Below are positions 3,831-58,600 of a DNA stretch of 64,000 nucleotides, in pieces. The stretch comes from Tubiluchus corallicola. Lineage: Eukaryota > Priapulida > Priapulimorpha > Priapulimorphida > Tubiluchidae. The notes under the pieces are model-generated. The model was not told the origin of the DNA, did not search any database, and saw only the letters and a program-made list of their open reading frames with translations. The stretch spans positions 370,001 to 434,000 of the forward strand of contig JAQGDQ010000065.1 in the NCBI GenBank assembly GCA_030141605.1, given 5' to 3'. Position 1 is the first letter of the stretch. Every line of letters begins with the position of its first letter. A program made the position numbers and the translations under genes.

Positions 3831-4415
3831 CTAAATTCCCAAAAGGTAATTTCATGTGTACTAATAATTGGTTTCACTATAAAAATTTAGCCAGACCAGA
3901 CTGGTTTGTGTTTTTTTATTTAGTGAAGTAATTTTATTTTATTTTTTTATTTTTTCTAATTCTATTTCGCAGGTGCACAGGGTTTGTAAGATTGAGCCGG
4001 TACTGAGGCTCAGTAAGCTCTGGAACTGAGTCGTTTGGTTCCATTTGACCACCGATCGACTGTCGATTGGTTCTGCAACCGAGCACTGGTTTATCATGCT
4101 TTAGCATAATTATTTAGTATAATTCAGTGTGATTAGCACAATTAGCAGGCATTGGCCTGCACAGAATGTATTTTCTTCATTTGAAGTATTTACTATGCCA
4201 TGCATTCCTAACAGTGACCTTAAGGTAAAGTCAGATACCATTGTTTTACAAACTTATAACACTGAATCAAAGAAAAACTGTGGAAGTAATCATTAATGTT
4301 GATATACAATTATTAACAACACTGTAATGTACATGTGTTGTAACAACCTTATGTCTTTATTAAATAGGTGTTTCAGCTGTTGCATGTTGTTAGCTGACTC
4401 ACAAAAGCAGGTAAC
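3831..4415. other. Upstream region of glomulin
   Basis: AT-rich with long T runs at 3905-3960. A possible 5'-UTR splice acceptor (tattaaatag) lies near 4367, but no upstream coding exon could be found. No clear TATA or initiator is assigned. Confidence 0.3.
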
Positions 4416-6131
4416 ATGGAAAAACCAACAGTTGAAGAATTCGTAGCACATGTATCGGGTATGATTGAAGAAAAAGATGCAGAGGGATTGTACAAGTTGT
4501 CTCAATCTTCTTGTGTGGATCATATTTTATGTGATGCTGCATGGCATTTATTGCCTTTACTTTGTGAAAGTCTTACTCAAGAAACAGCAGAGCAGTATCC
4601 TGCATATCCATATGCATGTGGAGAGTTTCTGTTAAGGCTGTGCAAGCATGGTAATGCTAAGGAACTTCTTGTTGGTATTTTAGAACATGCAGATACATTT
4701 ATCTGTGATATTCAATACAGTAAGCTTCTGTCAGCTTTGCAGATAATATTGCTTCGGCTTCCTGCTGAAAAGCATCTATATCTGGAGCTAGCTTTACCAC
4801 CAATGTTAGCTCATATTCAGTCTTTACGAGTGCCAGAAGCAAACAGCGTGGACAGTGAGGAAGAACAAATTTTGTATGCCGATGGAGACGTAATACGGAT
4901 TGCTGACTGTATGACAGACTTTGTAGAGTTTCTTCGCCCACTTTTTAATCATGTTAAGCAGTGTGCTAATGATGTGAATGTTCAACAGTCAAAGATGTGC
5001 CTTTCAATAATCCTAATTGGAAGCTTAGGTAGTCCTGTAAATCATTTACCATTAGACGATAAGTCAAGTTGTAAGATCATCGCACATGGTATTATTGAGC
5101 TTTTACTGATTTTAAACAAAAACTTATTTAATGCTTTCTCGTACTTAGCAATGAGCAATGCAAGTTATGACTTTTTCTATTGTCTGCCAGGTGAAGCTAT
5201 TTGTTGCTTGTTTTACCTTATTTTTTGTGAGAAGATTGCATTGGATAGGTTACCATGCGTGCTTCATCCTGTGTATGTAATGCATTTGTGTACTGATATC
5301 ATGAAATCAAGCTTAACACACAAGAGTGCTCAGGTCATCAAAAAATCACTGCTCTTGCTCACAGCTCTCTTAAATAGAATTGATGATTGTGCTAGTGACA
5401 ATCTAGAATTTCAAGAAAGCTATCTTCCAACTTTGCTGATAAATATCACAATTTATAATCATGACAAAGAGTTGCGGCTCATTTCTTTGGATGTTGTGCG
5501 CTTGATTTTCAAGAAATTGCATTTCAGAGCACGAAGCAATTTTCTAGTTCGCATGCTTCACCAGACACAACATTCAGGTGCAAAGGGCTTATTCATAGGA
5601 TTTCTAAAAGATGAGCTCGCATTTCATTTATCTTTAAAATACCCAGCAAAAGAATTCATTTCGGAACCATTCCTTAAGAAATTGCTAAGTCCAGTTTTTT
5701 ATCTTCCTGGTGGGGCAACTACGGATTTGCTTCAAGAGTCTGATAAAATGATGGCTGCGATGAATTTATTACGCTTTCTTCTTATGCGTGATACCAGTAA
5801 TGTGAGTGGTATATGGAACATGATACCTAGCATCACTGCTGAGTTTCTTGATCCCTTGGAAAGAGGCATAAATATATCTAAGGCACACTACAAACTTGAA
5901 CTGGACAACATATTAACAAACAAAACCAAAACTAGTGAATCCAAAAAAATTACTGGTAAACCCGAGATCAGCATTGATGTGGACGGTTTTAGGTTGCCAG
6001 AAGTTACACGCAAACAAGAGATAGATTTGTTAGAAAATGGCATAGCCATGTTTGATTTAATGGCATGCATTCTAGCACATGTTAAAGAAATCATTTATAC
6101 TGCAGAGCGACGTCGGAAAGAGCAAACTTGA
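4416..6131 (+). CDS. GLMN: Glomulin (intronless)
   Basis: A single uninterrupted 571-codon frame. Recognised as glomulin by co-linear similarity along the whole length to the vertebrate protein (about 594 aa). The best blocks are a HSGAKGLFIGFLKDEL segment (residues 387-401), the LPGGATTDLLQESDKMMAA segment (430-448) followed by MNLLRFLL (449-456), and the GINISKAHYKLELDNI segment (484-499). Glomulin is a HEAT-like all-helical protein that binds the RING domain of RBX1 and restrains cullin-RING ubiquitin ligases; this is family knowledge. The start is the first in-frame Met, in a purine-rich context (aacATGG). The vertebrate gene is split into many exons, whereas here nothing is spliced. Either introns were lost in this lineage or this is a retained functional retrocopy. 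I saw no poly-A tract or target duplication to prove retroposition. Confidence 0.92.
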   Translation: MEKPTVEEFVAHVSGMIEEKDAEGLYKLSQSSCVDHILCDAAWHLLPLLCESLTQETAEQYPAYPYACGEFLLRLCKHGNAKELLVGILEHADTFICDIQYSKLLSALQIILLRLPAEKHLYLELALPPMLAHIQSLRVPEANSVDSEEEQILYADGDVIRIADCMTDFVEFLRPLFNHVKQCANDVNVQQSKMCLSIILIGSLGSPVNHLPLDDKSSCKIIAHGIIELLLILNKNLFNAFSYLAMSNASYDFFYCLPGEAICCLFYLIFCEKIALDRLPCVLHPVYVMHLCTDIMKSSLTHKSAQVIKKSLLLLTALLNRIDDCASDNLEFQESYLPTLLINITIYNHDKELRLISLDVVRLIFKKLHFRARSNFLVRMLHQTQHSGAKGLFIGFLKDELAFHLSLKYPAKEFISEPFLKKLLSPVFYLPGGATTDLLQESDKMMAAMNLLRFLLMRDTSNVSGIWNMIPSITAEFLDPLERGINISKAHYKLELDNILTNKTKTSESKKITGKPEISIDVDGFRLPEVTRKQEIDLLENGIAMFDLMACILAHVKEIIYTAERRRKEQT

Positions 6132-7079: not shown

Positions 7080-10000
7080 ATGATATCAACAAAGCATTTG
7101 ATTTGTGCAAATGATGACATTTATTGGTTTGATAATGAGTGTCATACCAATTTGGTAAATGCTTCTAGAGAAGATCAGTTAATTCTATTTTTGAGTGCCT
7201 GTTGTGTAAACAATACCAGTGTTAAACGTGTTAGCACTGTGTTTGAATGTAGCCAGTTAACTGCATATTATTGCTCAAGGAGGAATAACCACAACATCTT
7301 TGTTCAGGAAGCGGATATTAAAGATAAAACATTTACAGATACCCGTGATATTCATTCGATGGTTAGCAAGTGTATTAAAATTAGAACCAGGTTAAAACAG
7401 AGACCATATGATGCATACGTAATCGCTTGTTTTCTGACAGAAGTCAAGCGGTCCTTTGTGTTACGTCAAGCACTAGTAAAGAAACTGAGAGATTTTTCTG
7501 GGAAGAAACCAAGAAGCCAGCTTTTTCCATTATCTGAAAACAACATACATCTAGTTGTTCAGCTAGAATGGCCAACGAGTCTGTCAGTATGTAAAGCTTG
7601 GTAAGTTGTGGATAATTTCTATCAAAAGTTCTAGGCCTTTGATAGAGTTCTAATTTTTATAGTTATTTAGAAAAAACAAATGGTTGCCAAACATCGTCTT
7701 CTTAATCCCTGTCTTTAACCAGTAAGATAATTGAGGTAAGGGTGCATTAAAATCAAGTGATACTTTATTAGAAATCACTTTATTAGAAAACTCCATGTTG
7801 CACCCCATCTTTTGCTCCAACTGCCTGTAAATCCGTCTTCTAGACGCATGTGTGTACTGTTTTAAGCTGCCTCTTTTTCACTGCTACCAGTTTTTTTGTT
7901 GCTGATGTTGTTTCTTTTTTGTTATCATTGCCATTTAGTTTTTGATGGCGGTGATGATAATGAAGTGAGGATTAGGTTGATAACCATGATGATACTAACA
8001 ATGATTATGATGGTGTGATGTTGATGACACAAACTATGACGCTGATGATGACAATGATGACTATATGGTGACCATGATAATGACACCGTTATTGTTTAAC
8101 TTACTGTCACTGGTTAGACCCCATTGCAAATATTCTACAGGGCATTGGTTACTGTTATACATAGTAACATTTTCTACAATCATCTGGGTCATTATGTTCA
8201 GCCCACGAATACACATATTTCCAATATTTAGGTCATGGCGCCTTATGCTTCTTGTGCTGAAAAAACAAAGTTTAGAAGAAACTATGGCCTGGCTGTCAAC
8301 ATTAGGTGGTGCATATTCTGCAATGGGTGACTATTACATGAGATGTGTATGTATAACTTTCACAGTAATTCATAAGGAATAAGACAAGTTATAAAATTTG
8401 TAACAGTTTTTGTGAATTATTTCAAAAATGGGTAATACTGAAGGTAATAAATGAGGAGTTGTGATGTAAGCTTGTGGGTAAAGTAAAGCAATACTTGACC
8501 GATGTAGTAAATTAATGGCAGGTAAACTGCCTTTTGGCCAGTTTCTCGAACTCTCATCTGCATGCTGCCTTGCTTATTTCACAAAACAAAACTTTATTTT
8601 GTCAGAGCATGAAGATTGTAAATTTTTCAACATTAAGGTACTGTTCTTTGAAGTTGACTGTTTGCAAATTGGTCTAGATATGACAAACTTGTCACTTTGA
8701 TTTGGGATTTCAAATTTTACATTATGCTGATGCAAAAACTGAAGCAGTTTACATGAACACAATTGCAGTTAATTTGGAATTTCAGTACTACAATATAACG
8801 TTATTATAGCGAATATACTAGTATAGGGGACCCAAAAAAAGGTACTCTATAACCGAGGTACTCTGTAATAAGCATATGTGGCTAATCACACACACACACA
8901 CACACATATATATACATATGTATGACTAGATGGACATATAACAATAACATAAGTATATAAATAATGTACACTGCTTGGTTTCATAGAGACGCTATCAAGC
9001 ATCAACTGATTTGAATGTAATTTCAATAAACTAAAAGTTAATGAACATTTCATTTAAATTGCATGTACATGTTCTGATGTAAACTTATATGACATGTTCA
9101 GAAAAGTTAATGAGATTAAAAACAGTCAGTCAATTGTGTTTGCACAAAATTTCTGTTTGTTTCTTGTTAAAAAAGTTTTTTAGCAAGTAACTGCTGTAGT
9201 GTACATCATCACTTGATGAAACATCTCAGTTTCCAGTGTACACCAGTGTAAATAAAACAGCTAGGTGCCAAGTTGCTGAGTGCCAGTGTGTGCTCAATGA
9301 ACTTTATGTGCTCAATGTTTGCTTTAATGGTGTTATGCTGCAGTAGAATCCGTATAGGAAGACAGTGCAAAGGTGCGTTTCAACTGGATGACCTAGTGTT
9401 CCCTCCTAGTGCTTCCTGACCATGAACGTAGGCAAAAATGGCACACTTAGTAAAATATGTGTTTAGGGTTGGGTTACAGCTGGGATAATTATTTTAGTTA
9501 TTTTTACCTCTGCCAAGGAAGTTATGCTTCAACACAGTTTGTTTGTCTGTTTAGTTTTTTGTCTTTATGAAAGTAAGCCTATTATGCAAAAACCATATAA
9601 CAGATTCCAAGAAACGAGTGCCAAATCTTTTCGCTGGTCCCTTTTTCGCAAAATTTGACGGAACACCATGTGCAAAAAATACGTGAAACATTTCTTGGAG
9701 ATCTCAGAGGTAGTGTTTAGTATTTATTTTTTGTTATTTCCACCTAGACAAACAACTATGAGTTAATTCCAGTTCCATTTTGGGAAATTCTCACTTGTAA
9801 ACCTGTATGACGCTGTCTATAACCTTTGCTTATTAATATGTAGTCTTATAAGGTGACTTAGTACGTATATTTGTCAGTCTATTACCATGGCTAAAATTAA
9901 TAGTTAAAAAAGTAGATAAACACTATGTGGCATATTCATGCATTTAACGAACAAATATTGTTTGGGCTTTACGGAGACAAACAAACAAAGTCATCATTCG

Positions 10001-13000
10001 CTCAGTGTAACTGTTTATTGTTTGTACTATTTTCATGGCACATGCCCCGTAGTCATATTTGCTTCATCCCAAAATATTACATTTTATCTGAAATAATATA
10101 TAAATTTCTTTAATAAACTGATTCATTTTTACCAAAACATCGAATATGATTAAATTAATGAGAAGCTTACAACAAAATAAAATAAATGACTAAATAAAAT
10201 TTACGTACATCGTTGGGATTAATCATGAGTTCACGCAGCCACGTCACCACATGTACACCTTGAAACCTAAATGACCGGAAACTCTGTAGGAAGCGACTAT
10301 TGAGGCCAGGTGTCGCCACTTGTAACTTATAGCTATACTAAATTTGACAAACAAAATCCTTGACACCGCCTCCTTAAATGTATGTTAAACATTTACTATT
10401 TACTACAAAGAGTTTAACTGAGCAAAAATCTTTACGAACTGTGCAATCTAATTTTTACAGTGCTTCTCCTTTAAACTCATCAAGTGCGCTTTCAATCAAG
10501 CATAATCTGTGAATGGGGCGCTGCAGCTGCCCATCCTTTGTTTTTAGTGTTACGCTTCTCACTAGGCCGTCTCTTCCAACATGTTTTTCCGTTATTCGAG
10601 CAAGAAGCCAACAACTTCTGGGGGTTTCATCCATTATCAGTACAACGTCGCCTATTTCGACATCCTTCTTTTGACGATTCCATTTTGAGCGGATCTGGAG
10701 AAGCGGCAAGTACTCCGTCTGCCAACGTCGCCAAAAGACATCAGCTAGGTATTGGATCTGGCGCCATTTGCGGCGATAGATGTCTGCTGATGTAAACTTT
10801 CCAGGAGGCAGGTTTGTTAAGTTACACTTCGCCAACAGCAGGTGATTGGGCGTCAGAGGACTACAGTCTTTTGGGTCGTCCGAGGTTGCCGTTAAAGGCC
10901 TACTATTGACAACGTTTTCAACAATGCAGAATAGAGTGTTGAGAGCTTCATCATCAAGAGCTTGTTCATTTGTCACAGAAAGCAAATGCTTCTTGACAAT
11001 CTTGACCATTGCTTCCCATACTCCTCCCATGTGGGGAGCTCGGGGCGGATTATACTCCCACTCGATGTTTTCCTGGAGCAAATCTTTCTGAATAGTGTTG
11101 TGATTCCACTCTTTCATAGCCTTGGAAAGTTCCTTGTTGGCACCTATAAAATTAGTGCCACAGTCGGACCTAATTCTGTTAGGTTTGCCTCTTCTGCTAC
11201 AAAATCTATGGAGTGCTTTAATGAAGGAATCTGTAGACATCGAGAAGAGTACCTCCAAGTGGATGCTTCGTGTGGCTAGACAAGTAAAGAGTGCCCCATA
11301 ACGCTTCACCTCGATTCTACCGCGTTTGACCACAATTGGTCCAAAGCAGTCCACGCCAACCGCAGAGAAGGAGCCTTGTTGAACTCTCTCAGGAGGCAAG
11401 TTGGCCATTTTTTGTTGCAATGGTTGAGAGTAACGCAGCCTACATTGTCTGCATTCATGGATTACTTTCCGCACCATGACTCGCATCCCAATTATCCAGA
11501 ACGCTCTACGGACGGAAGCCATGACATGTTCTCTTCCTGTGTGTCCATTCGTCTCGTGGAAGTGCTGTATGACAAGCCAAGAGAGTCTATGATTTTTGGG
11601 AAGAATAATAGGATGACGAGCTTCATGATCTACTAGAGCATCTTGCAGGCGACCGCCGACACGCAAAATTCCCTCTTTGTCAATAAAGGGATCCAGCTTA
11701 TACAGGCAGGATGATTTGGTTACAGAGCGTTCTCGGCATGTAGATTTGGTACGGGAACACATCGTCTTATATTCTTTGTTGAAACTTTGCTTCTGTGTGT
11801 GTCTGATCAGCTCATTCTGGGCCTCATTTAATTCAGTCAGAGTTAGATTTGTGGAACAATCCATATCACTTCCGCCAGAAGCTTTCCTGTGCAATATTGT
11901 TTTGGCTCGTAATAACCAGGCTAAACCTCTTTTTAGCCTGTAAAAGGATGAGTAATACTGCAACAATTGATCTATGATATTATTTGAAGTTCCCTTGCAT
12001 TCTACGACGTTCACAGTGGCTGACCGCTTTACTTCTTTGTCATTAGCTAGTATATCATCCGAATCTAAATTAGTCTGCGGCCACGAAGCTTCATCTTTTC
12101 TTAAGAAAGATGGACCAAACTTCCATCTATTGGAAAGTAGCAATTCTTCAGCGCTCATGCCTCGGGACGCATCATCAGCGCAGTTGTCTGTTGAGCTAAC
12201 AAACCGCCATTGAGTTGGTGAAGAGACTTGCAAGATTGAGTTGACACGGTTTTGGACGAATGTATGAAACCGCTTTGCTGTGTTCCGAATGTAATGAATA
12301 ACTATCTGACTATCAGTCCAGAAGACCGACTGATCTGTACCAACACAAAAGGATAGCTCTTCCCTTAGCATTTGATCAACTTTTGAGGCTAAAACTGCAG
12401 CGCAGAGTTCAAGACGCGGTATTGTAAGACCTTTAAGTGGGGCAAGTCTTGATTTAGCCATGAGGAATGCTGTGTGAATTTCACCTTGAGCACTCTTCAT
12501 ACGTACATAACTGACAGTACCATAAGCATAGCTCGAAGCATCGCAGAAATGATGCAACTGCAAATGGAAAATCAGGCCAAAATCACGAGGCTTCATGCAT
12601 CTCTCCAACTTGAAGTTTTCTAGTGCGAAACAATCTCCTTTCCACTTTGCCCACTTGGCTTCTGTATCTCGTTCTAGAGCGTCATCCCAATCCTTTTTCT
12701 GAATTCTACATTCATCTTGGAAGAGTTTTTTGGCCTGCAGAACGAATGGACAGATCATTCCTAATGGGTCATAGACTGACGAAATGCAGCTTAACATTCC
12801 TCGTTTTGTACTGGGCTTGTCTTTGAGTGAAACCAAAATTCCAAGGCAATCTTCCTCAACTAGCCATTTAACTCCCAGTACGCGATCAGTTGGCAGAGGG
12901 CTCTGAGTTAAGTCAAGATTCTTGATTTCACTTCCACGTTCTTCAGCAGGCACAGATGCCAAGACCTCACGTCTGTTGCTCATCCACTTAGTTATGTGGA

Positions 13001-16000
13001 ATCCACCAAGAGACAATAAGGCAGTCAGTTGAGAAACTAGCTGTATGGCTTCATTCACGGTGTTTAGCGATTTTAAAAGGTCGTCCACATAGAAGTTTCT
13101 CAAAACGGTAGCGACAACATTTGCGGGAAACAGATCTGCATTGTCTTTTGCAGTCCTTTGCAAAGCAAATGATGCAACGCTCGGGGACCACACCCCGCCA
13201 AACAAGTGTACACACATTCTAAAAGTACGTGGTTGACTGTTAAGATTTCCATCTTTACACCAAAGGAAACGCAACATATTTCTGTGTTTAGGAGACACGA
13301 TCACCTGGTGGAACATCTCCCGGATATCCGCCATTACTGCAATAGGATTCTCTCGAAACCGAAGCAAAACTCCAATGCACGTGTTTGTGAGATCTGGCCC
13401 TTGCAATGGTAATTTATTTAGAGATATTTCATTTGTTTCCGCTGCTGCATCAAAGACGATGCGAGTTTTCTCCGGTTTATTGGCATTAAACACCGGAAAA
13501 TGGGGAAGAAACCATTTCCTGGAAGTAGGGTCATCATCTTCATCGACCTCTTCTGCATATCCTTTCATGAATAGGTCATTTATAGCTATAGTGTATCGGT
13601 TGTGCAATTCTGGGTTCCTCTGCAGCCGTTTACGTAGACTTTCCAATCTAGATGAAGCCATTTGTAGCGTATCTGGTAAAACATCATTCTCAGATTTAAA
13701 TGGGATGTCCAACTGGTAATGCCCATGTGTTTTTGTGATTGAAGCCTCCCATATATCGAGAGCACGCATATCGTCTCTAGAGAAGTGTCTGTCAGACTCG
13801 CTAGTTTCAATTTTCCAGAATTGTTCTATTTGCTGCTGCAAGGAATTGGTTTCTCCATATGACAATGCATTGGCTTGGGTTAAATTACTACAAATGCGCC
13901 CTAAATTAGGAACGCCGCCTCCTATGGGTCCATTAAGGGTCCAGCCTAGCTTTGTCTTCACAGCATATGGCGTTAGTCTAGGACCTGTTCGTACCTCAAG
14001 AGGAATCAGCGCATCAGGAACATCCTGGCCGATCAAAAGTCCCAGTTCAGTTAGGTCTTCTGTATCTGTGAACGATAGGGGAAGTCCTTGCAAATGCGGC
14101 CATTGTTCTACATCCTTGCTAAAGGCCAAGCAGTCCTTTTCCAGTAACAATGCAGGCCTAACGAAGACATGAGGCAAAGCTATTTTATTGCCAGTGTTTA
14201 CCCCAGTAACAGACATCTTCGTGATTAAAGTGTTTACCTTGGAATATTTCTCTTCTATAGTGGTTAAAGAGAGCGTTCGTTCTTGTCCAGTAGCCCCAAG
14301 TTTGTCGAACAATGCCTTTGTACAAAAAGTGTTAGTCGAGCCAGGGTCAAGTAGGGCTAAAGTACGCACGGGCATCTTCCCATCAACTTCAACCAAAACT
14401 GACACAACAGGGAGAGCAGCTTTGCCGCCTTCCTTAATACTAGCACAACTGCTAGAAGCTTCTGGTTTGCAATGTGTTAGCGCTTTTTCCTCCTTGCTTC
14501 CATCATTGTTTTTAGAAGGTGACATTTTCTCCAAGGCAGCATGCAGTAAATTTGAATGCTTACGTCTGCAACCTTCTACGTCGCATCCTGCTTTGAAGCA
14601 CCGAGCAGCCCTGTGCTTTCCTTTAATCAAACAATTGAAGCAAAGACCTTCTCTTCTGGCGGTTTTCAATCTATCAGTATCATTCATTGACTTAAATTTA
14701 TTGCATAGCCTGAGTGAACGGTGTTCCGTAGAGTTACATAGAAAACAAGGCATCTCTAGGCGTTGAGAAGCCATTTTGCCACCACTTCCGGTTGTATTTC
14801 CGGGTTGTCGTTCACTGTTGCATTTCGTAATTGGCGCAGTTTCCTGCGCTGAGCTGGCGAAATTCCTGGCTTTGGTGTCGCGTTTACCTTTTGGGCTCCT
14901 GGTAGGCAGGCTAACGTTAATGTCGCCAAAAACAGGATGATTCATTTTGTCAGCTGCGTCCTTAATGAATTCGACTACATCAAATATCGTCGGATTCCTG
15001 TGCTCATATTTCAGAAGCCTGGCTACAACATCCTTCCACCTATCCTGGAACTTGAATGGGAGTTTTTTAATTATTTGTAGCAAACTGCATTGAGTACTAA
15101 TTTCGCAAACGTTGTTCATTATTTTCAAAGTTTCCACACAAGCCACAATCAAATCCGAAAATTCCTGTAACTTTCCCGGTTCATTTATCTTTATGGGCTC
15201 AAATTCAGCAATTCTGGAAAGCCAGGCCTGTGTGACAACAAATGGCGAACCGAATCTTTCGGTTAAAAGCTGTTTAGCATGCCCATATGCAAAACGGGGG
15301 TCCATGTAATTACAACTGTCTACAACTCTTTTAGCTTTACCAATGCAGAGTTGGGCTAACCTAGTGTACCTCGCTGCATCATCTTGGGTATAGTTCTCCA
15401 CGCTGGCTTCGAAACGCTTGATAAAGCTCCAGAACTTCATTACGTCACCATCAAACGTTTCAAGCTGCACGTGTGGAAGCTGCATAGCATTGTACATATT
15501 TAAGTGTTGTCTTTGGCCTTCTAACATGAGGTCCATAAAAACGTTCATGTCATTCTGACTAGCCCTACCGGAGAAATTCCTAGAATTATTTTGTATCCCG
15601 TTACCATAAGAAGCCTGAGGCGATGTAGCCGGAAGCGGAAGTAGCGTATTCCCTGGGACGAAGTCACGTGCAGAAATATTTAAAGTTTGTTCTACCTGGG
15701 GTGATTTAAATGCGGCATGGAAGAACGGCGTAGTTTGTTTAACGCTAGGTTCTAAAACTTCACTGGGAGAATTTTCGAAGAAGGGTTGTACATCAAATAA
15801 ATAGATATCCCACCATCTACGAAGAAAACCTGATTCATAGTCATCCGAAAAATTGACGTTTACATATTCAGTATAATCCCAGGGCTTCTTTCGGCCCAAA
15901 AAGTGCGCAACTTTAATCTTGCTACTGAACTGCTTCATTGCAGGAAGGTAACCGTAACGACCTTGGACGGCAGCATTATACACAAAAGGTAGGCGCTTGT

Positions 16001-19000
16001 CAAACTGTAAACTCCAGTTCGGAAAGGCTAAATTTAATAACCCCTGATCACCGCCATCGAATGAACAGGCCTCAGTTTGTGATAGTGACATCAATCTACT
16101 GTAAGTTTCCAAATTGGGCTGAAATACAAACATTCCAGAATTAAAACAATCAGGCCACCCCACATCTGGGGCAGCCGCAAGCTCATCATAATTGAATAAC
16201 TCATCAATATTATCTAATACTAAAGTATCAGCATCTAAGTAAACGCACTTTGTAAACTGTGTCATAGCCCAGCAGTGCAATTTCGAGAATGTTACATTTA
16301 GCTCTGGCCTACCTAGCAAATGCAAGTTATCAAAATCACTACTCTTTAATAAATCAATCATTTGTACATAATCAAAAACATTACTAAGCTTTGCCATAAC
16401 TCTGCTAGAAACAGTATGGGTGACCAAAATTGCTAGATGTCGAGTTGTACCAGTTCGACGCAAACTGTGTGCCAAGACAAGAGCTCCCTTAGCATAACTG
16501 TCGTTCGTTGCCATGGTGAGATAGGCCTCCATAGACGTATGATGAACTGCAGGCTTGGTGTCTGATGACTGGGCTTTGGTGACGTCACGCACTCCTTGAA
16601 GCCAATCGGTAACCTTGTCCTTGGTTGACATGGGTTTCCTAGCTAAAGTCTCGTCTTTGATTTCAGGCGAGGTGACGGTTGTACGCGACTTCTGACTGGT
16701 TGCACTGCTATGTGAAGTAACTTCACTCTCAAGTCTTAACTGTTTTAATTTCATTGCTTTTAATTTCAGCTCCTGTTCCTGAATCTTAATCTCATGCAAC
16801 TTTAATTCCCTGGCACTTTTCTTCGACCGTCTCGTAGATTTCGAATGACTAGCACCTGAAGATGCTTTGCGCTCAACAACTTGATGCTGCGCTGTCGCTG
16901 TAGCTGCGTCAGCATACGACGACGTACCAGACGCTTCACATGACGTCACATTATATGAATGATCTGGTTTCTGCTGACTTGCTAAGAGTCTGTGAATTAG
17001 CTCTTCTTTACTACCAGAAACTGACAGTTGTTTAGCCCGCAGCATTTCTCGCAGCTGATCACGGGTCGTATTTTTTAATTTCTCCCTTGTTGTTTGGTCC
17101 GACATCATTTAGGTGTGTTCAACTTTAAACATGACCAAATAACTTCTCCTGTCTACAAAAGTCAATCTATGTACGCGAAACAGTAGCTAAACCGGAAGTA
17201 GGTCACAATCTGGGTCATATGTTGACTGTATAAAAATGTCCACTCTGGATTGTCGAATGCCGATATAAAATTGTTTGGGCTTTACGGAGACAAACAAACA
17301 AAGTCATCATTCGCTCAGTGTAACTGTTTATTGTTTGTACTATTTTCATGGCACATGCCCCGTAGTCATATTTGCTTCATCCCAAAATATTACATTTTAT
17401 CTGAAATAATATATAAATTTCTTTAATAAACTGATTCATTTTTACCAAAACATCGAATATGATTAAATTAATGAGAAGCTTACAACAAAATAAAATAAAT
17501 GACTAAATAAAATTTACGTACATCGTTGGGATTAATCATGAGTTCACGCAGCCACGTCACCACATGTACACCTTGAAACCTAAATGACCGGAAACTCTGT
17601 AGGAAGCGACTATTGAGGCCAGGTGTCGCCACTTGTAACTTATAGCTATACTAAATTTGACAAACAAAATCCTTGACAAATATTGTTGTAAGTTTTGCTA
17701 GTCTATATAATACCAATACAGGCATTTTTTGTATGTTTGCATGTTTATCTTTGTGTTAAATTTTTTGAATCAAAATAATCAGACGAATAAGATTAGGATT
17801 GTTCAACTTTAGCAGAGATCTGCTTCATACTGAACGCATTCTAGTTTTATTATATAAGTCAATTGCATCAGTATAACATATGTGCCATTTTCCTACTTTT
17901 CCATTTGTGCCATTTTTACTTACTTTTCCAGTTCTGCCATTTTTACCGGGCACCCCTGACCACATATGGTATAGGTTAATGCTGTTAACCACAATGTGTG
18001 CCTTTAAGGCCAATACCAAATTCATACCAATTTGTACAAGAACAAAGTCAGAATCATGACTGGCAGCCAAAAATTAGCACCAACAACATATAAACCAAGA
18101 CTAGCAAAATGGTCTTGAGATCAAGACCAGTCTTGAAATGTACAACTCATTCTAGCAACAGAATAATGTTCACAACTTTCAAGCTTGTTAAAATTTATTT
18201 GTAGGCAGAGATTGCAGGAAAAATTTCTGTTCAGCAGCTACAGGTGGCATTGGAGACGGGTGATCAAATATTATCAGCCAAATGCAGAGTTTATATTGCG
18301 ATAAGTTTCATGCAAAGAGGCAGATTGAAAGATGCAAAGAAAATTATCAGGTTAATTTCTGTGTTGCTTTATAATTATTGATTAACTAGATATATAACTT
18401 TTATAATGAAATTGCAACTTGTGACATTTTAACTGTTCTTGGGTCAGGGGTCAAACCAAATTCGTGTCAACCTTGTTCAATTTGTTTCATCCAGGCCTTT
18501 TATTTGGTATACTACAAGCCATTGTTGTTCAACACTGGAACGACCCCTATTTTCTGGTTTTGGCCCCTAACAAAAATTGTTTTCCGCATCCATATTTCAA
18601 TAATGTAGAAGAATTCAACTTCTAGCCACATAACAAAAATTGTCACCCTACTTAAAAACTGTAGAAGGAACTGTAGAGCCTAATGAAAAACTGATAGACT
18701 CTACTTTCCTTGACTCTTTGACCCAATGTCACAGTCACTACTCCGTTGTTTGAAGTCCTTTTACAGGTATATGCAGTGCAGTTTTGTGACTCAAGTGTTG
18801 TGACTTTTCCAGTTATTGACAAAACTCTGCTTTAACACTTTTGTCACACGACCTGGCCATTCCCATTTTCCGAAAAGTACTTAATACGCCATTACTTGAC
18901 TACTCATGCGTGTAAAAACATGGACTCCTAATTGAATACTGCAAGTGGAGTTGAGTGACAAAGCCATTTGCCCTAATTTTCACATTCTGGCTCCTGCTGT

Positions 19001-44400: not shown

Positions 44401-47400
44401 ACACACCCAAAACCCATGTTAACTTAGATATATTGGATGCTTAAATAAAACATTACCCAGTTCCGTGACTGTACTTGTCAGGTTATACAATTTACTTTAA
44501 ATTTGGATAGAAGTGCTTGACCTGGTGTTGATTTACTCATGGCTCGACATTGCTTCATTTTTTTGCTTCTTATGTTGGATTGAGTTTCTTGATTTATATG
44601 TAATTTTTAGTTTTGTTTTTGTTGAGGTCAAAGGGCAGAATAGGGTCAATCTTGCACAAAATATAAATAGCATTTTGATTTTAAGGAAAAAACAGGTCAA
44701 ATTTGTTATGTAATAATAAAAGCACTTTGAGTTAATAATGCAATTAATGAACAACAAGAATTAAATACATTTTGATTTGAGTTCAACTTCATCATTTCTA
44801 GATTTATTGATTAAAAATAAATCTAATGATTTGGACAATAATACTAAATAAAATAATTTTCAATATGCTGATAATTTTGACAAACATTTAGCTATATAGG
44901 TTTTTTTTAATAATTTTATAAAGGAAAGGTAAGACTTGTGCAATCTGTGAACAACACCCGAAACTTTACTCATAAAATAGTACTGCGGTATGACTTTAAA
45001 AATTACTGTGCTGCAAAGAAGAGAAGAAAGACAGAGTATTTCCTGATATTGATGATAATATCTGTAATGGTCTGTGGATTTGCTAATTTGTAGAGTTCAT
45101 TTGTATTAGTAATTTGTAACAGCATTCAAAGTACGAATCGGCAGCTCGTTATTCAATAATTGAAAAAAAATTAGTTGAGTATTAGAGTACATTTTCTGAG
45201 CCACAGATTCATGCCATGCTGTAGTATTTTCAGTTTTATGAATATTAATGTAGTTAAGATTATGAAGTTAGATAAAGAAAATAGAATATAGTTGAGTAAG
45301 AGCTTAACATTAACCAGAGTAAGTTAACAGCAATTGCTTTTTAAGTTTAGAGATCAACATATAGATATTGTTAGAATCTTTAATATTACTGTTCAACCAA
45401 TTCCAAAATTTAACAGCTTTATATTTGATAGTACTTAATCCATGAGTGGTACAGAATCTGGGCGTAAAATATAGACCACAAGTGGCAGATCTATTTTCGT
45501 AGTTATGGATTTCAGATATGGGAGTAAAATAGTTAGAGAATAGTTCAGGTAAGTTCTTATTTTCGAAACAATACATGAATTTGGCCAGCTTTAATTGGTA
45601 AATTTCATCAAGTTTTAACAGTTTAGGTTTTCCATAAGAGGGTGTAGCATGAGCACGATATGGGCTAAATGTAATGATTTTCACTATCTTATTCTGGGCT
45701 ATAATGAGTGGTTTTAGGACAGATGTTTTTGCAGTACCAAAGCACAGAATACAATACTGGAGATAAGGATATGCAAGTGAGTAGTAAGGCATTCATAAGA
45801 TGAAGGTGTCTAAGAAATATTGCACTTTAGCAAAAAGACCAATGAGCTAATTAAATTTATACGTGACTGATTTAATTTGAGTTTTCCATGACAATGTATT
45901 ATCAATGTACAAACCAAAGTATTTTATATTATCGGCTGCAATTAATTCATGATCCCCATAAACAGTTTAAAAGTATTACATGCATCGAAGGCTTGGTTAG
46001 AAATAAGCATATATTTTGTTTTTTCATAGTTTATTGTTAACTTATTAGCCCTCATCCATGTATCTATCTTGTCTAGTTCATTGTTAGTCTTGAGTTGAAG
46101 CTGACTAAGATTAGTACAACGTAAAAATAGGTTTGTATCATCTGCTAATAACAGGACGTGGAAATCAGAACAGTGTGCCAAATAATTAATGTGAATTAAG
46201 AAAAAAAGGGGACCTAATGTAGAACCTTGGGGAACTCCACATCTTATGCCAGTGATATCCGAGTGGGTATTGTTTATGCAAGTATATTGTTTATGATTGC
46301 TAAGTATGATTTTAGTAGTTCCAGCGGGGTACTCCTAATACCATAATGTTCGAGTTTGTTAAATAGTATGTGATGCTGTATGGTATCAAATGACTTTGAA
46401 AGGTCAAGAAATATACCACAAGTTGTTAATTTTTTATCTAAGTTGGAATGAATAGTATCTATTATTTCTGTCATAGCGAGCATTGTTGAGTAGATTTTCC
46501 TGAAGCCAAACTGGTACTTGCATAAGATGTTGCAACTGTTAAAAAAGTTGGAAAGTCTAGAATATATTACAGATTCAAAATTTTTTGCAATGGGGGACAG
46601 TAATGAAATAGGCCTATAGCTAGAAAGAACATCTAGGTCATTAGATTTGTAAATTGGTAATATTTTAGCTAGTTTCAGTTCATCAGGAAAAATACCTAGT
46701 GAGAGTGACTTATTGATTGTATGAGTTAGAACTGGAGAGATTATGTCAGCAGTGATTTTATAGTATTTTATTGGAACATTCTCGGGAATGGCAGCCTTAC
46801 TAAATATCTAGTTTTAATATAAGCAATGTAATTTCTTCTATGGTGACTGGATTAAAAAAATTGAGTTTTGATTGCTTGGGCCAAGAAATTGATAAGGACC
46901 AGCAGAGGAGTTAATGCTATTAGCCATGTTTTAACCAGCTGTTGTAAAAAATTGTTGACATTGTTGGCTATTAGCTTAGGAACTGTGATTTTGTTTTTCC
47001 TTGCACTAATTTTGGTTGGAGTAATCCATTTTTTTGTTACCAAGAATTTCATTTAAGGATGACCAAACTTTTTTAAATTATTCTTGTTGTTATTGATAAG
47101 ATTATGATAATATTTTTCCTTGGATTGGGCCTTAATATGATTAAGTTTATTGACATAATTTTTGTACTGTTTTTGCCTTAGAGTAGAATCAGACAGTTTA
47201 TGTGTTTTATACATTTTACTGCGATTACGAATAGAATTTAAAATAGCAGGTGTTATCCGGCTTCTTAAATGTTGATTGCTCTTTTCTGGATAAAGATTTC
47301 ATGGGAGCATGTTTATTAAGAATACTGATGAATATTTTTGAGCCTTTAATTTTGGTAGCTATTGTATTGTGTAAGGAACCCGAAAAAACAAGCTTAAAAC

Positions 47401-51397: not shown

Positions 51398-52650
51398 TTA
51401 ATATGGCCGTGGGTATATGAATTCTGAATTAGTGTGTATGTTGTCGTACTGGTGTGATGGCATTTCATATCTGGTTAATATTAGTGATTTTAATTTTGTT
51501 TTAAATGCTGATAGGGACTTGATTTGTTTAACCTGTAATGGTAGAGAATTCCAAAGTAAAATTGCTTGTTTGATTACAGAGTTCGTTCCATAGTGGGTAT
51601 TTGTCCTAATTTGTTTTAGATTGCTTGTTCTGGAATTAACGATAGGATTTGGAAAAAAGGTAAATCTGTTATTCTGGAATGGTTTGCTGATGTTGTTAAA
51701 GTATTTAAATATAAAAAGCAGAGTAAAATATTCTTTGTGTGCTTCAATGATTGGGAATTTTAAAGTTTTTCTCAGGTTAGTTGTTGAAGCTTTGAATTTT
51801 TCTCTACCTGCCTTATGTTTGTATGAGTACCCAGCTATCAATCTCAACGCATAGTTTTGAAGGAGATTTAATTTTAAGTAATTTTCTCTTTTGGTTTTTT
51901 GAAGTAGCGTACATCCATATAAGAAGTGTGGTAGAACTAAAGTTTTATATATTAGTGTTTTAGTTTCCTTTGTTAGTTGCCCTTTAACTTGTCGGAGATA
52001 TGATGTGCTAGATGCCATTTTTGTGTATATGTTATTAAAGTGTTCATCCCATGAAAGATTATTGTCTACCTGTATGCCCAGGAATTTAACATTGTTAGTT
52101 TGTTTGATTACAGCATTATCTATTGTCAAAGTGGTTGATGATGCATCATTAGTATTTAATGAGGGTGACAATATCATAAATTCTGTTTTGTCATTATTCA
52201 TTTTTAGCTTGTAATGACTAAATGCCATATTTATATTTTTTATATCTTCTTCTAAATAATTTTTTGCAGTTTGGACATTTTCATGGGCTATGTAGATTGT
52301 AGTGTCATCAGCGTATTGCGTTATTTGTGAGTGTTTTAATACACTGGATATGTTGTTTATATATAGGCAAAATAATAACGGACCTAGTAGTGTTCCTTGC
52401 GGTATACCTCTGTTTAACGTGGCCCAGTCAGAAAAGTTGGTTGTATCTAACTTTACTCGTTGTTGTCTGTCTTTGAGATAATTTTGTATCAGTTTTAACG
52501 ATGTCGAATCTAATCTGATTTGTTTTAAATTATCGTAAAGTAGTTCGTGATTAATGCTATCGAAAGCTTTACTTAAATCTAAAAATGCTGCTAAAATGTA
52601 TTGCTTGTTGTCTAAACTATGTCTCCAATTTTCTGTTGTGTGTATTACAG
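51398..52650 (-). pseudogene. LINE reverse transcriptase, C-terminal part (frameshifted)
   Basis: The second part of the LINE ORF, in a different frame from the upstream part. RT motifs: AFLDLSKAFDSINHELL (motif A, Asp in LDLSKAFD), GIPQGTLLGPLLF (motif B), QYADDTTIYIA (motif C; YADD), FLGIQVDNNLSW (thumb side). The C-terminus continues about 250 residues to a stop at 51398. It is open throughout except for the junction with the upstream frame. The frame formally extends to 52708, but real LINE homology begins near 52650. Confidence 0.88.
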
Positions 52651-54671
52651 GCGTCAATGGTTGAATGGTGTTTACGGAAGCCAAACTGATGTTTTGATAA
52701 AAGTCCATGTTTATTTACATATGAATTTATCTGATCATAAATTACCCTTTCCCAAACTTTGCCAAAACAATGGATTACGGAAATTGGGCGATAATTCATG
52801 GGATCACATTTTGAATCTTTTTTATGGATTGGAGTCACGTATGCCATTTTACATACTGTTGGAAATTCGCCTCTCATAATTATCTGATTAGCAATGTAAG
52901 TCATATGCGGGGCTATTACAGATGCACTATCTTTTAGAATTTTGATAGGAATATCTGATGGCCCACTCCCTTTGTTGGAACTTAGGTTATTTAATATGTC
53001 GTTAATTTCTCCTACTGTGACGCTTTTGAATGAGAATACTGTGTTGGACGATTTGTTTTTTAATTTGTTAATTATATTATTGCTAATATGAGAAGCCATT
53101 CCCTTAAAATTTCCAAGATTCAGGAATATTGCATTTAGCGCGTTGGCAATATCTTTGGGTTTTGTAATAACAGTGTTGTTGATCTTAATTTCGTCAACAC
53201 GCGTTAGTTTGTTACGACATTTATTTATTACATTGTTAATAATTTTCCATTTTTCTTTAGTATTTCTTACGTTTTTACATTGTTGTTGTATATGTTTATT
53301 TTTCAAGCATTTATTAAGATTATTAAATTGATTTCTCTTTTTTTTATAATTGTTATGATTGTATTTAGTTTTGTTCTTTTCCCATATATTATACATTTTG
53401 TTTTTCGCTATTCTTAGTTTGTCAAGTTCAGGTGTTGTCCAGGTACTTTCGTTATTGAGTTTGTTTTGTTGTGGGATTTGCTTTACGTTTTTATATGGTG
53501 CATGTACATTAAGGCAATATTCGACATTATATATCAGAATATTAACTTGTGTATCTATTTTATCAGTCATATATATGGAGGTCCAGTTCATTTTTGCTAA
53601 GTCGATTAAGTATGAATGTTTGTTGTATTGGGCGTAGTCTCTCATTAAGTGCCAGACTGAATTTTGGTTATTGTTATGCTGTGGGGTCATTTTATCTACT
53701 AATATTGTGAAATGACGATCTGAATAATCACACGGGAAAGTATCATATGCTACGAAATTATTGTTACTATTCGAAATGAAATGGTCGATTACTGTGGCTG
53801 ATGTTTTAGAAATTCGAGTGGGTTTATTGTTGTTAAGTATGTGGACATTATATTGTTTTAAGAGCTCTGTGTATGTTTTGTATGCCAGTGTGTTAGTAGC
53901 TAAAATATCAAGGTTGAAATCGCCCATTATAAGAACTTTTTTATTTTCGAAAACAATGCGTTCTAGTTCTTCACTAAAGTATTTGAAAAATGTTTTGTGT
54001 TTGAGATTGGGTGGTCTATATATGGTTCCTATTACATAGTTTTCAATGCTGCACCAAACAGATTCAATCTTGCCGGTTCTGATGCCTTTCATTTCTTGTG
54101 GTCTCAGGTGTGAAGGTATATACATCGCAACCCCTCCACCTTTCTTATTTTTACATCTATCTCTTCTTATTAATGTGTGATTAGGTAATTCTATAGTGTT
54201 GCTAAGTATTTGTTTATGTAGCCAAGTTTCTGTTATGCCTACAATCAGATTTTCGGTGGCGTGAATTGTATCTTTCAGCAGCCAGTGTTTTTTGACGAGA
54301 CTTTGAATATTTATATTTAGAAATTTGATGTTCTTTTTATAAGTAATCATGAATTTTTTTAGCTCATCACTGGTATTATTATTGTTGGTGTTATTGTTAT
54401 TGTTATTATTATTATTATTATTATTTGGCAAAATGGGTCCAGGGTTAGTTTCGATACCACCAAGTATAAGTAGTAAACGAATTATGGTTAAAATGTAAGC
54501 CAGTTCAGAACATGAGTATATAGTGCTTTCAAATTTAGATGAAATCTGTAATTTTCCCAATTTTTTTAGAGCTACGTATTTTAGATTGACATGACGCATT
54601 TGCCTTTTTAGGAAGTACACAGAGTTAAAAATATTTTTTACAAGTGGTTGAACGTCATAATTAAAGTTCAA
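52650..54671 (-). CDS. LINE ORF, 2A-like motif, AP endonuclease and RT start
   Basis: An open 684-codon frame, of which about 674 codons are homologous before the frameshift. Residues 1-70 are a basic N-terminus with a hydrophobic LTIIRLLLIL stretch. GGIETNPGP at 71-79 is a 2A-like motif. A poly-Asn run at 83-99 comes from an ATT repeat. AP-type endonuclease spans about 112-325 (TETW with E148, GDFN with D251, IDH at 295-297, SDRH at 317-320). RT begins with MNYRPISVIHCFGKVWERVI and HQFGFRKHHST. This is the architecture of 2A-bearing CR1-type LINEs described in marine invertebrates. The frame then runs 10 codons out of register before a stop at 52617. Confidence 0.88.
54378..54425. repeat. 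(TTA/TTG)n microsatellite encoding poly-Asn
   Basis: Trinucleotide run read on the minus strand as AAT/AAC codons, just after the 2A-like motif of the LINE ORF. Confidence 0.9.
54435..54461 (-). other. 2A-like ribosome-skipping motif (G-I-E-T-N-P-G-P)
   Basis: Residues 71-79 read GGIETNPGP after a hydrophobic LLLIL stretch. The consensus is D-(V/I)-E-x-N-P-G-P, where translation skips the final Gly-Pro bond. Here the first Asp is Gly, so activity may be reduced. 2A motifs in this N-terminal position are documented for CR1-type LINEs. Confidence 0.75.
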
Positions 54672-55099
54672 ATGATTAAAATCAGGCCAATTTTTAAGTT
54701 TAAAAATATGATAATTCTTAATTATTACAGGTAAGTTGGTATTGCCATTGTACAGCTGTAAGATGCATATCGAAGCAATAAATAAAATTTTATGGGAATT
54801 ACATTTAGCTTTTACACATATGAAAATTTTTGAAATATAAATTAAGATCTGTATTACTTATTAAGTCAAGAGTATAAAGCACAAAATCAGGATTAAGGCA
54901 ACATGGGTCCACTAGTAAAATATATGAAGGTATTACGCTTAAATTTATCAGCACCATAATTAATTTACTATTGTGTGACTTAGAAAGAGTAACGTAAATT
55001 ATGAGAGTTAGACTGATTGCCAATAGGCTAATGTTAACGATAGGCCTATAACATGCACACATTTCATCATTAGTGGGTACATTATATGAAGTACAGGCG

Positions 55100-55659: not shown

Positions 55660-58600
55660 ACAGGGCGTTCCAAAATGGTTGCATCAGCAAGACTTCTACC
55701 TTGGTTGTCTAATACTGAATGAGCCATTTGAAGACGCACTTTTCTTATTTCACCCTCAGCACTAGGATTGGTTTCTTACGCTCTAGCCAACGTCCAATCA
55801 TTTCTAGTACGACCTTCATCTTTCACAAGATTATATCATCAGCTTCTACCTGGTGCTTAGATCCATGCCACTTAGGCCTTGTCTGAAAATTTTGGAGAAA
55901 TGCCTACCACCCGGACCAGAACAGATTTGCCCAGTGTTGCACTCTTCTCCAACGTGTGTGTGAACATTTTACATTCTCCACGAAGTTACTTGGTGAAGGC
56001 ATTATGAATTTCGATTTAACCTTCATCATGAGCAATTGATTTGGAGTTAACGGGTTAAGAAACTGAGAATCATTTATGGACTCTGTAGTCAGAGAATGAC
56101 TATTTACTATTTTAATGTCTTTGGTAATATTACATCAACTCGATAATTACTATTTGGACAACACTTCAACACTTTATTATTTCAAATGTAATGAACGATA
56201 CATTAAACAAAGAAAATTAGCATGTACTGTCAAATGCCTTATCTTACACATGTTCTCCTTTCCAGGCATCACTAACTAACCCACATCACTAAGCACAAGA
56301 TTTCATGCATATACAACATTTCCTTTCTCCTACTTGTGAACCTGCATACAAAATTAAGCCCAAGAAATTCACTCTAAAATGAAACACACATTGCAATTTG
56401 CAGGACAAAAATTTCCCATAGGGCTTGGATGAATCTCATCCTCAAATCAACATGTGCAGTGTGAACACTAACTTTTGAAATTTGTTAACATTAAACTGTA
56501 TCTAGTAACTAGCATATGTTTGCCCTATATAGGATAGCAAGACAAATCATATCTAATATATCTGTGTCCTCAAGCAGCAGAATTAATTACAAATTCAGCC
56601 GTTTTGGAGGAACAATGGCTCTTTTAGACCTTCTCAAGGTAGTGTTAGGATTTTCCTCGACATGAATAGCATTTGGTGATTTAACAGGTAACACATCTTT
56701 ACATGTGTCAGGTCCTTTCACTACAAAAGGTTTTTGGTTTACAATTGGTTTTACAGAAGTGTTTACAGTAGTAGTAGAGGGCATCGTAATATCGGGATGT
56801 AACTGTACATGGGACAGGAACATTACAACTGATTTTGGTTCAATTACACTAGGCTTAACATGCGGCTCTTTGCCAACTTTCAGTTCACAATCACTTCTTG
56901 CATCATCATGCATCAAATGATCAGTGTGCACAAATCGAGCAAAATTACCAGGTAGTTTAACTAAGTACGTATGAGGACCCTTGATTTCAGTTATTATACC
57001 AGGAATCCACTTTTCTCTACCTTTTCTCAAATTTCGAACTTTAACATGTTAATACAAACTGTATACACGAGATTTAGGGTTTTTACCATCACGATGTAGT
57101 TTACTTGCCTCTTGTTTATGTTCTACCTTACGCTCCAAGCTAAGTTTAACTAAAGACAACACAGTTCGAGGAGCTCTCTTTAGAAAAAGTTCAGAGGGAG
57201 TCTTACCAGTAGTGCTTTGGTACATTGCGATAATTAAATAAAACATGTGCTATTTTATTATGTAATGGCATACGAGCATCACACTTTTTGTACATCTGTT
57301 TAAAAGTATGCACATATTTTTGGTGGTATGGTGGGCATAGAGTGTGTTCGATATCATTTTGCTGTAAAAAGAACTTGAAATCTTCAGTAATGAATTGGGG
57401 TCCATTATCTGAAACTAATCTTTGGGGAAGGCCAAATTTTGCAAACAAGGTTCTCAAAGTTGTAATAGTAGCAGACGAAGAAGTACTTGTCATCGGAAAA
57501 AAGCTCAAGCCATTTAGAAAAACTATCAACAACTAAGAAAAACATCTGACCTCTAACTTCTGCGAAATCTTCATGAATCCTTTGCCAGGGTTCTGTGGAC
57601 CAGGGCCACAACAAAAGAGGAACAGGCTTAGGGTTCTTACCCAAGTCTGAACATTGTTGACAAGTCCGAACAATTTCTTCGATGTCCTGGCCACCAGACG
57701 AATGACCTCGCCATAGCCTTCATTCAAGTAACACCTGGGTGGCAATCATGAAGTTCAACTGGCATTCTTTTCTGCAAATGTACAGGAACAACTACTCTCC
57801 TACCCCAGAGAAGACATCCATCCTCAACTGACAATTCATCTTTGCGCTGAAAAAATGGAGAGAAAATTTTATCCACTTCAATCCGCCAACCAAATAAAGT
57901 GTACTCATACACTCTGGACAAGAAAGAACCGTTGGCAGTTACACTTGCAATTTCACTAGAGGTTATTGGCAGATTATCAACAATAACATGACAATTCCAA
58001 TGCTCATTGGGGTCAGCAGTAGCATGATTATTAACTGGGAATCTACTCAACATATCGGTTTTAGCATTTGCATTACCAGAACGGTACACAATATCATACT
58101 GATATCCTGACAAAAGCCCATCTTTGCATCCTGGCAGCAGCTAGAGTAAGAATGCTAGTCTTAGGACCAAAAATTCGAGTGAGAGGCTTATGGTCCGTCA
58201 TTAAAGTGAATTTTCGCCCATACAAATACATATGGAAACGCTTTACACCACAAATTATTGACAAACATTCGTTTTCAATCTGAGCGTAACCCTTTTCAGC
58301 AGAACTTAAGGTCCTAAGTGCAAAAGCAATAGGTCTATCCGACCCGTTTTCCATCTTGTGGCTCAAAACTGCTCCTAAGCCAAAAGGAGAAGCATCTACA
58401 CTTAAGATTAGTGGCTTCTGAGAATCAAATTGCACAAGAACCTGAGCACTTAACCAAGACTCTTTAGCAAACAAGAAAGCTCTTCACATGCTTTTGACCA
58501 GGCCCATTTAGCAGTATGCCTTAACAAACCATACAAAGCATGCAGTTTAGAAGACAAATTGGGCGCAAATTTGGCGTAATAGTTTACCATACCCAAAACG

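Follow-up and report, generated by a model that had tools for sequence, protein, structure and literature searches.

A glycogenin domain within the Gag-Pol polyprotein of a BEL/Pao retrotransposon lineage of Tubiluchus corallicola

Host-gene capture by long terminal repeat (LTR) elements has mostly been described in the form of few-copy passengers or extra frames. In acutely transforming retroviruses, host complementary DNA (cDNA) is joined in frame with Gag, in recent single events usually resulting in replication-defective genomes. LTR elements of bdelloid rotifers bear captured enzymes, a GDSL esterase and a DEDDy exonuclease, as an additional open reading frame, ORF3, with intact invariant residues (one DEDD being changed to DEED); this ORF3 occurs in part of the families and is absent from the earliest branches (PMC5408684). 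Bs1 of maize and other plant LTR elements take up host genes usually in gag/pol sense and in one or few copies (PMC7264820). In the present study, a 64,000-nucleotide stretch of the genome of the priapulid Tubiluchus corallicola (contig JAQGDQ010000065.1, positions 370,001 to 434,000; in the following, the window) was analyzed, in which positions 9954-17683 are occupied by one BEL/Pao insertion on the minus strand, comprising LTRs, a target site duplication (TSD) and a single frame with the order SAP, coiled coil, glycogenin (GT8), Gag, protease, reverse transcriptase (RT) and integrase.

The element combines LTRs and a 5-bp TSD with a single frame for DUF1759 Gag, protease, RT, PF05380, integrase and DUF5641, and is a member of the BEL/Pao LTR retrotransposons (Belpaoviridae), from which it differs by SAP and glycogenin towards the N-terminus of the polyprotein. 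Compared to animal glycogenin-1 and -2 (GT8), the retroelement copy has no intron and is fused to Gag, and the C-terminal docking motif for glycogen synthase was not found. As with the bdelloid ORF3, an enzyme has been captured by an LTR element; here, however, it forms part of the Gag-containing frame itself, lying upstream of Gag, and is a glucosyltransferase. In contrast to the plant transductions, the glycogenin domain persists across diverged subfamilies. Gag-oncogene fusions likewise join host cDNA to Gag, whereas the glycogenin fusion is an old shared trait.

The preliminary description of the window knew of no retroelement with a glycogenin domain, which agrees with the literature searched and with the public-protein matches listed. 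No report was found in the titles and abstract openings searched, mostly of non-subscription literature. A protein search with the glycogenin part (candidates of 442-1405 amino acids, aa) gave no glycogenin-Gag fusion among the best 120 of 775 matches, nor did a search with glycogenin plus Gag (772-2455 aa, 8000 candidates scored) among the best 120 of 530, which at 39-49% query coverage represent glycogenin with little beyond. Gag plus protease retrieved 17 public proteins, none listing PF01501 among its Pfam domains, whereas PF05380 is found in 15 of them. In viral contigs, six patterns specific for the window copy did not match, which is a weak test.

The fusion, its lineage and selection on the domain

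A full GT8 domain between a SAP/coiled-coil N-terminus and a BEL Gag, as initially proposed, is indeed encoded within one open frame of 2217 aa (Table 1). Protease, RT and integrase core stand in the expected order though each scores below the Pfam cut-off, and the SAP domain, at 21.4 bits in the window copy, reaches 30-40 bits in relatives. The insertion is recent, having 407-nt LTRs without difference and a 5-bp TSD. As to the primer-binding site, a TGG directly after the 5' LTR (from 17271 downwards) was not seen by eye; complementarity to transfer RNA was not searched for.

Searching the genome (343.5 Mb, 2344 contigs) with the glycogenin domain resulted in 92 matches, a number including host-gene exons, several pieces of single copies and identical matches on five contigs. 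The matched stretch is stop-free in 25 of the 30 best matches, and three of the 92 lie in open frames of more than 2000 aa (2217, 2201 and 2028 aa). With the pol piece of the PF05380 region (12309-12809) as query for finding relatives, 150 places were obtained. When 93 pol places were compared with 73 of the 92 glycogenin places, 30 of the former were preceded by glycogenin in the same orientation, in 28 cases at a distance of 2.6-3.2 kb; one element (contig C485) contributes two pieces to these 30. At least six subfamilies (A to F) and single copies have both fusion junctions in common, with the order SAP, basic coiled-coil-like stretch, K-V-x-x-W, glycogenin, linker and Gag as far as each locus extends, and K-V-x-x-W is kept in all 18 aligned glycogenin-bearing rows. 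The domain is 93-99% identical to the window copy in A copies and about 47-59% in the other subfamilies and the single copies. Fusion anatomy and lineage are thus almost certainly genuine. Many insertions with both junctions had been named as the mark of an established lineage, and such a lineage is indeed found at 30 of the 93 pol places and in diverged subfamilies sharing the fusion. Hence, of the claim that the window element captured an enzyme, the fusion is real, whereas the capture, with subfamilies so far diverged, is that of an old lineage and not this element's own.

Contigs C2136, C2140, C2209, C1796 and C2016 show identical glycogenin and pol match scores and the same stop, inflating copy counts; they represent either duplicated haplotigs or a segmental copy. 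In addition, a distant BEL-type pol match (contig C2246, 59577-60062) lies within an open frame extending over 2683 aa, which is unusually long and could hold another extra domain. A copy on C1991, 97% identical in the pol piece, was considered as a close relative without the domain and rejected, as its match to the window element begins inside Gag; it seems to be 5'-truncated and hence uninformative on domain loss.

The ratio of nonsynonymous to synonymous substitution rates (dN/dS) is given within subfamilies, as comparisons between them are saturated at silent sites, and is based on 10 pairs of five copies each; the pairs are non-independent and the values descriptive, with no formal test against 1. 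In subfamily A, dN/dS is 0.25 for glycogenin, 0.30 for Gag, 0.22 for the N-terminal part and 0.75 for the linker, while subfamily B shows 0.29, 0.21, 0.49 and 0.35, respectively. The glycogenin domain thus changes mostly at silent sites, with a dN/dS well below 1 and similar to that of Gag. Less favorable to a constraint as strong as on Gag are the slightly higher glycogenin value in B and one D pair with 0.47 for glycogenin versus 0.11 for Gag, both values of this pair resting on few changes.

Both an erroneous join in the assembly and a processed glycogenin pseudogene landing by chance in one element can practically be dismissed, as nothing but the unexpectedness of the fusion speaks for them. 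The join is ruled out by the many diverged copies, at many separate places, having the same fusion, and the pseudogene by the recurring position together with the low dN/dS of the domain.

Origin, inheritance and loss of the glycogenin domain

The glycogenin gene of the host (contig C2137, 422300-427200) consists of at least four exons over domain residues 5-204, with introns between, whereas the element reads unbroken across the exon joints of this gene and has no introns. This suggests a spliced transcript as source, and together with the shared fusion it lends support to the proposed in-frame capture of spliced glycogenin cDNA by a BEL element. In domain trees, 23 retroelement rows form one group versus 20 animal glycogenins (support 99/93) as well as versus 14 (99/96). 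The window copy is 55% identical to host glycogenin over 201 residues, while the host protein shares 68% with the human one over 199 residues, which points either to an old capture or to rapid evolution of the copy. The preliminary description had named the host as donor, which is not borne out, as the window copy is equally near, at 55%, to a snail glycogenin. In the tree, host glycogenin pairs weakly with that of the acorn worm Glandiceps (92/88).

A pol tree was calculated from 51 rows, 27 with and 24 without the domain, six of the latter being public sequences. All 27 glycogenin-bearing rows fall within one 34-row branch (91/95), alongside seven rows without domain. One clade of the 27 bearers is rejected, however (approximately unbiased (AU) test, p 1.8e-48, 48-row pol tree; four changes), so that further gains or losses must have followed. 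The rows of C417 and C1776, without domain match, adjoin the domain-bearing C2344 (100/99), and the C548/C1786 group adjoins the E group (99/97). In two more distant relatives (L083 and L084), neither a glycogenin match nor a clear SAP was found, hence both domains may have arisen on about the same stem.

Several independent captures, or recombination swapping the domain between element families, would likewise account for bearers not being one pol clade and for families without domain nested among them. A further point for such a scenario comes from the first glycogenin tree (23 versus 20 sequences), where the lone E row, on a long branch, grouped with A (89/85), contradicting the pol tree. 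On the other hand, the retroelement glycogenins are one group versus the animal glycogenins sampled and are all inserted at the same site after K-V-x-x-W; once more rows are included, the E group agrees with the pol tree, as does, weakly, the core group. Repeated capture or swapping is consequently regarded as improbable. A single capture, in comparison, is very probable. The most plausible reading of the pattern is that the domain was captured once, long ago, from a spliced transcript of an animal glycogenin gene, was presumably passed on together with pol and subsequently disappeared on at least two occasions; a single gain followed by two losses would be the simplest account.

In line with inheritance along with pol, the branches of the glycogenin tree (23 versus 14 set) broadly match those of the pol tree, the E group being recovered with C2344, C1821, C2123 and C25 (95/97). 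Several observations nevertheless weigh against this history or against an indispensable domain. The core clade A/B/C/F is weak (81/63), D is a 100/100 group without settled position, and the E row left its conflicting place beside A only once four more E-group rows had been added. Moreover, in the C1776 copy (L097, 50800-52800), Gag is preceded by SAP, coiled coil and a W motif, without glycogenin, and in the C1786 copy (L082) Pfam detects neither SAP nor GT8. From these two copies it follows that Gag can manage without glycogenin. By eye, L097 shows a repeated glutamine/proline/serine-rich linker where its relatives have glycogenin.

Active site, docking motif and a possible role in Gag

A set of 23 public glycogenins has 82 invariant columns, of which 66-77 are retained in seven representatives of the retroelement lineage; elsewhere, the agreement of these representatives with the host majority is 36-47% (59/165 to 79/169). 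Individual residues were surveyed in the 30 best-matching loci, broken copies included (human numbering). K86, D104, D125 and N133 are kept in all 30 rows, D160 and D163 in 29, H212 and K218 in 28 of 29 with data, and Tyr195 and Tyr197 in all 27 with data. The residues preceding Tyr195 vary among the representatives with data while the tyrosine is constant. In the window copy, the DxD metal motif, the UDP-glucose residues checked and the acceptor Tyr195 are all present. Among ten representatives, 10 of 12 catalytic or substrate positions are invariant versus 61 of 252 positions overall, which are counts only, as the rows share ancestry and every functional GT8 enzyme retains its active site. 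Speaking against an intact active site throughout are D102 of the DxD motif, kept in 27 of 30 rows (two E, one N), and an added copy on C1821, in which S replaces N133.

The C-terminal motif W-E-x-G-Q-x-D-Y-x-G-x-D of glycogenin recruits glycogen synthase. A profile of this docking motif, built from 31 sequences and with the motif visible in the glycogenin consensus, matches (E<1e-3) 188 of the 196 members of the glycogenin set, which comprises 195 public proteins and a truncated human domain without the motif region. In the frames of the 30 retroelement loci (L001-L030), reaching about 500 aa past the domain, the motif was not found (best E 4.8). Hence, the domain is a glycogenin with regard to fold and active site but not with regard to docking motif, and the suggested tethering of particles to glycogen is weakened.

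Glycogenin is a dimer binding UDP-glucose and a metal ion and builds a short alpha-1,4-glucan on a tyrosine. The retained residues suggest that the domain is probably an active enzyme, and the reading favored on balance is a Gag that glucosylates itself by means of a built-in domain no longer coupled to glycogen synthase. Every Gag precursor would then bear a working glycogenin, and the domains of two precursors might pair, each glucosylating the tyrosine of the other as in glycogenin. The chain would stay short and never be passed on for glycogen synthesis because the motif recruiting glycogen synthase was not found. The gain might be a Gag dimerizing via the domain and decorated with oligoglucose, altering assembly, solubility, masking or recognition, with UDP-glucose or the sugar state of the cell as possible cue. 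Self-glucosylation of Gag is the best idea for the selected function, with the chances about evenly balanced. More tentatively, particles might acquire oligoglucose from their own Gag and UDP-glucose, without glycogen synthase, as a glycan coat or a sugar-state assembly switch.

Structural co-option, with the domain only a ready-made dimer or scaffold in Gag and catalysis unused, would be in line with the dimeric state generally known for glycogenin, with the dispensability of the domain and with D102E or D102N in some rows. However, the acceptor tyrosine, which is constant next to varying neighbors, would be superfluous in a mere scaffold, and acceptor and most catalytic or substrate sites are kept although the subfamilies share only about half of their residues with the window copy, making the scaffold explanation unlikely. 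Similarly unlikely is an effector role, in which the domain would glucosylate host proteins or mix with host glycogenin, diverting glycogen metabolism or a defence pathway. This would be compatible with the largely kept active site and, as the docking motif was not found, with a product that glycogen synthase would not take over, whereas the position within the Gag precursor and not in a separate accessory frame suits a structural, stoichiometric role. The lineage provides a natural glycogenin seemingly freed from glycogen synthase, a metabolic enzyme built into the Gag precursor with nearly all of the active site kept through deep lineage diversification and with natural losses as controls. 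This makes glucosylation of its own particles by a retroelement a testable question.

Coordinates and other features of the window

Table 1. Features of the BEL/Pao insertion, in positions of the window
Feature	Position	Strand	Remark
TSD AATAT, 3'-LTR side	9954..9958		read by eye
3' LTR, 407 nt, TGT...ACA	9959..10365	-	zero differences versus 5' LTR
Likely polypurine tract, AAGGAGGCGG in element orientation	10366..10375	-	by eye
Gag-Pol single open frame, 2217 aa	10455..17108	-	
DUF5641 (PF18701)	10497..10769	-	Pfam E 6.9e-29, above cut-off
Integrase core (PF00665)	11109..11306	-	E 8.3e-05, below Pfam cut-off
Integrase zinc-binding domain (PF17921)	11433..11591	-	E 1.1e-10, above cut-off
PF05380 (Pfam: Pao retrotransposon peptidase)	12309..12809	-	E 4.7e-44, above cut-off
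Reverse transcriptase (PF00078)	12993..13355	-	E 4e-4, below Pfam cut-off
Aspartyl protease (PF13650)	14202..14393	-	E 0.0071, below Pfam cut-off
Gag (DUF1759, PF03564)	15030..15455	-	E 1.1e-06, above cut-off
Glycogenin-to-Gag linker	15474..15770	-	docking motif for glycogen synthase not found
Glycogenin catalytic domain (GT8), residues 190-446	15771..16541	-	agrees with glycogenin in fold and sequence tests
Acceptor Tyr, glycogenin-domain position 196	within 15771..16541	-	matches human Tyr195
K-V-x-x-W motif (KVTDW), directly upstream of glycogenin	16602..16616	-	by eye
SAP domain, residues 15-42	16983..17066	-	Pfam 21.4 bits, below cut-off
5' LTR, 407 nt	17272..17678	-	
TSD AATAT, 5'-LTR side	17679..17683		read by eye

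Outside the insertion, a 577-aa frame on the plus strand (4398-6131) belongs to the YAP/Alf4/glomulin family (PF08568, E 2.4e-22) and is likely a host gene near the insertion. Frames at 51398-52714, 52617-54857 and 45310-46807 on the minus strand and at 62906-63808 on the plus strand resemble pieces of non-LTR retrotransposons, the first with an RVT_1 match (E 9.3e-28); by eye, the frame at 62906-63808 contains near-identical peptides on the opposite strand. Broken gypsy-like pol frames were seen by eye at 56587-58997 on the minus strand.

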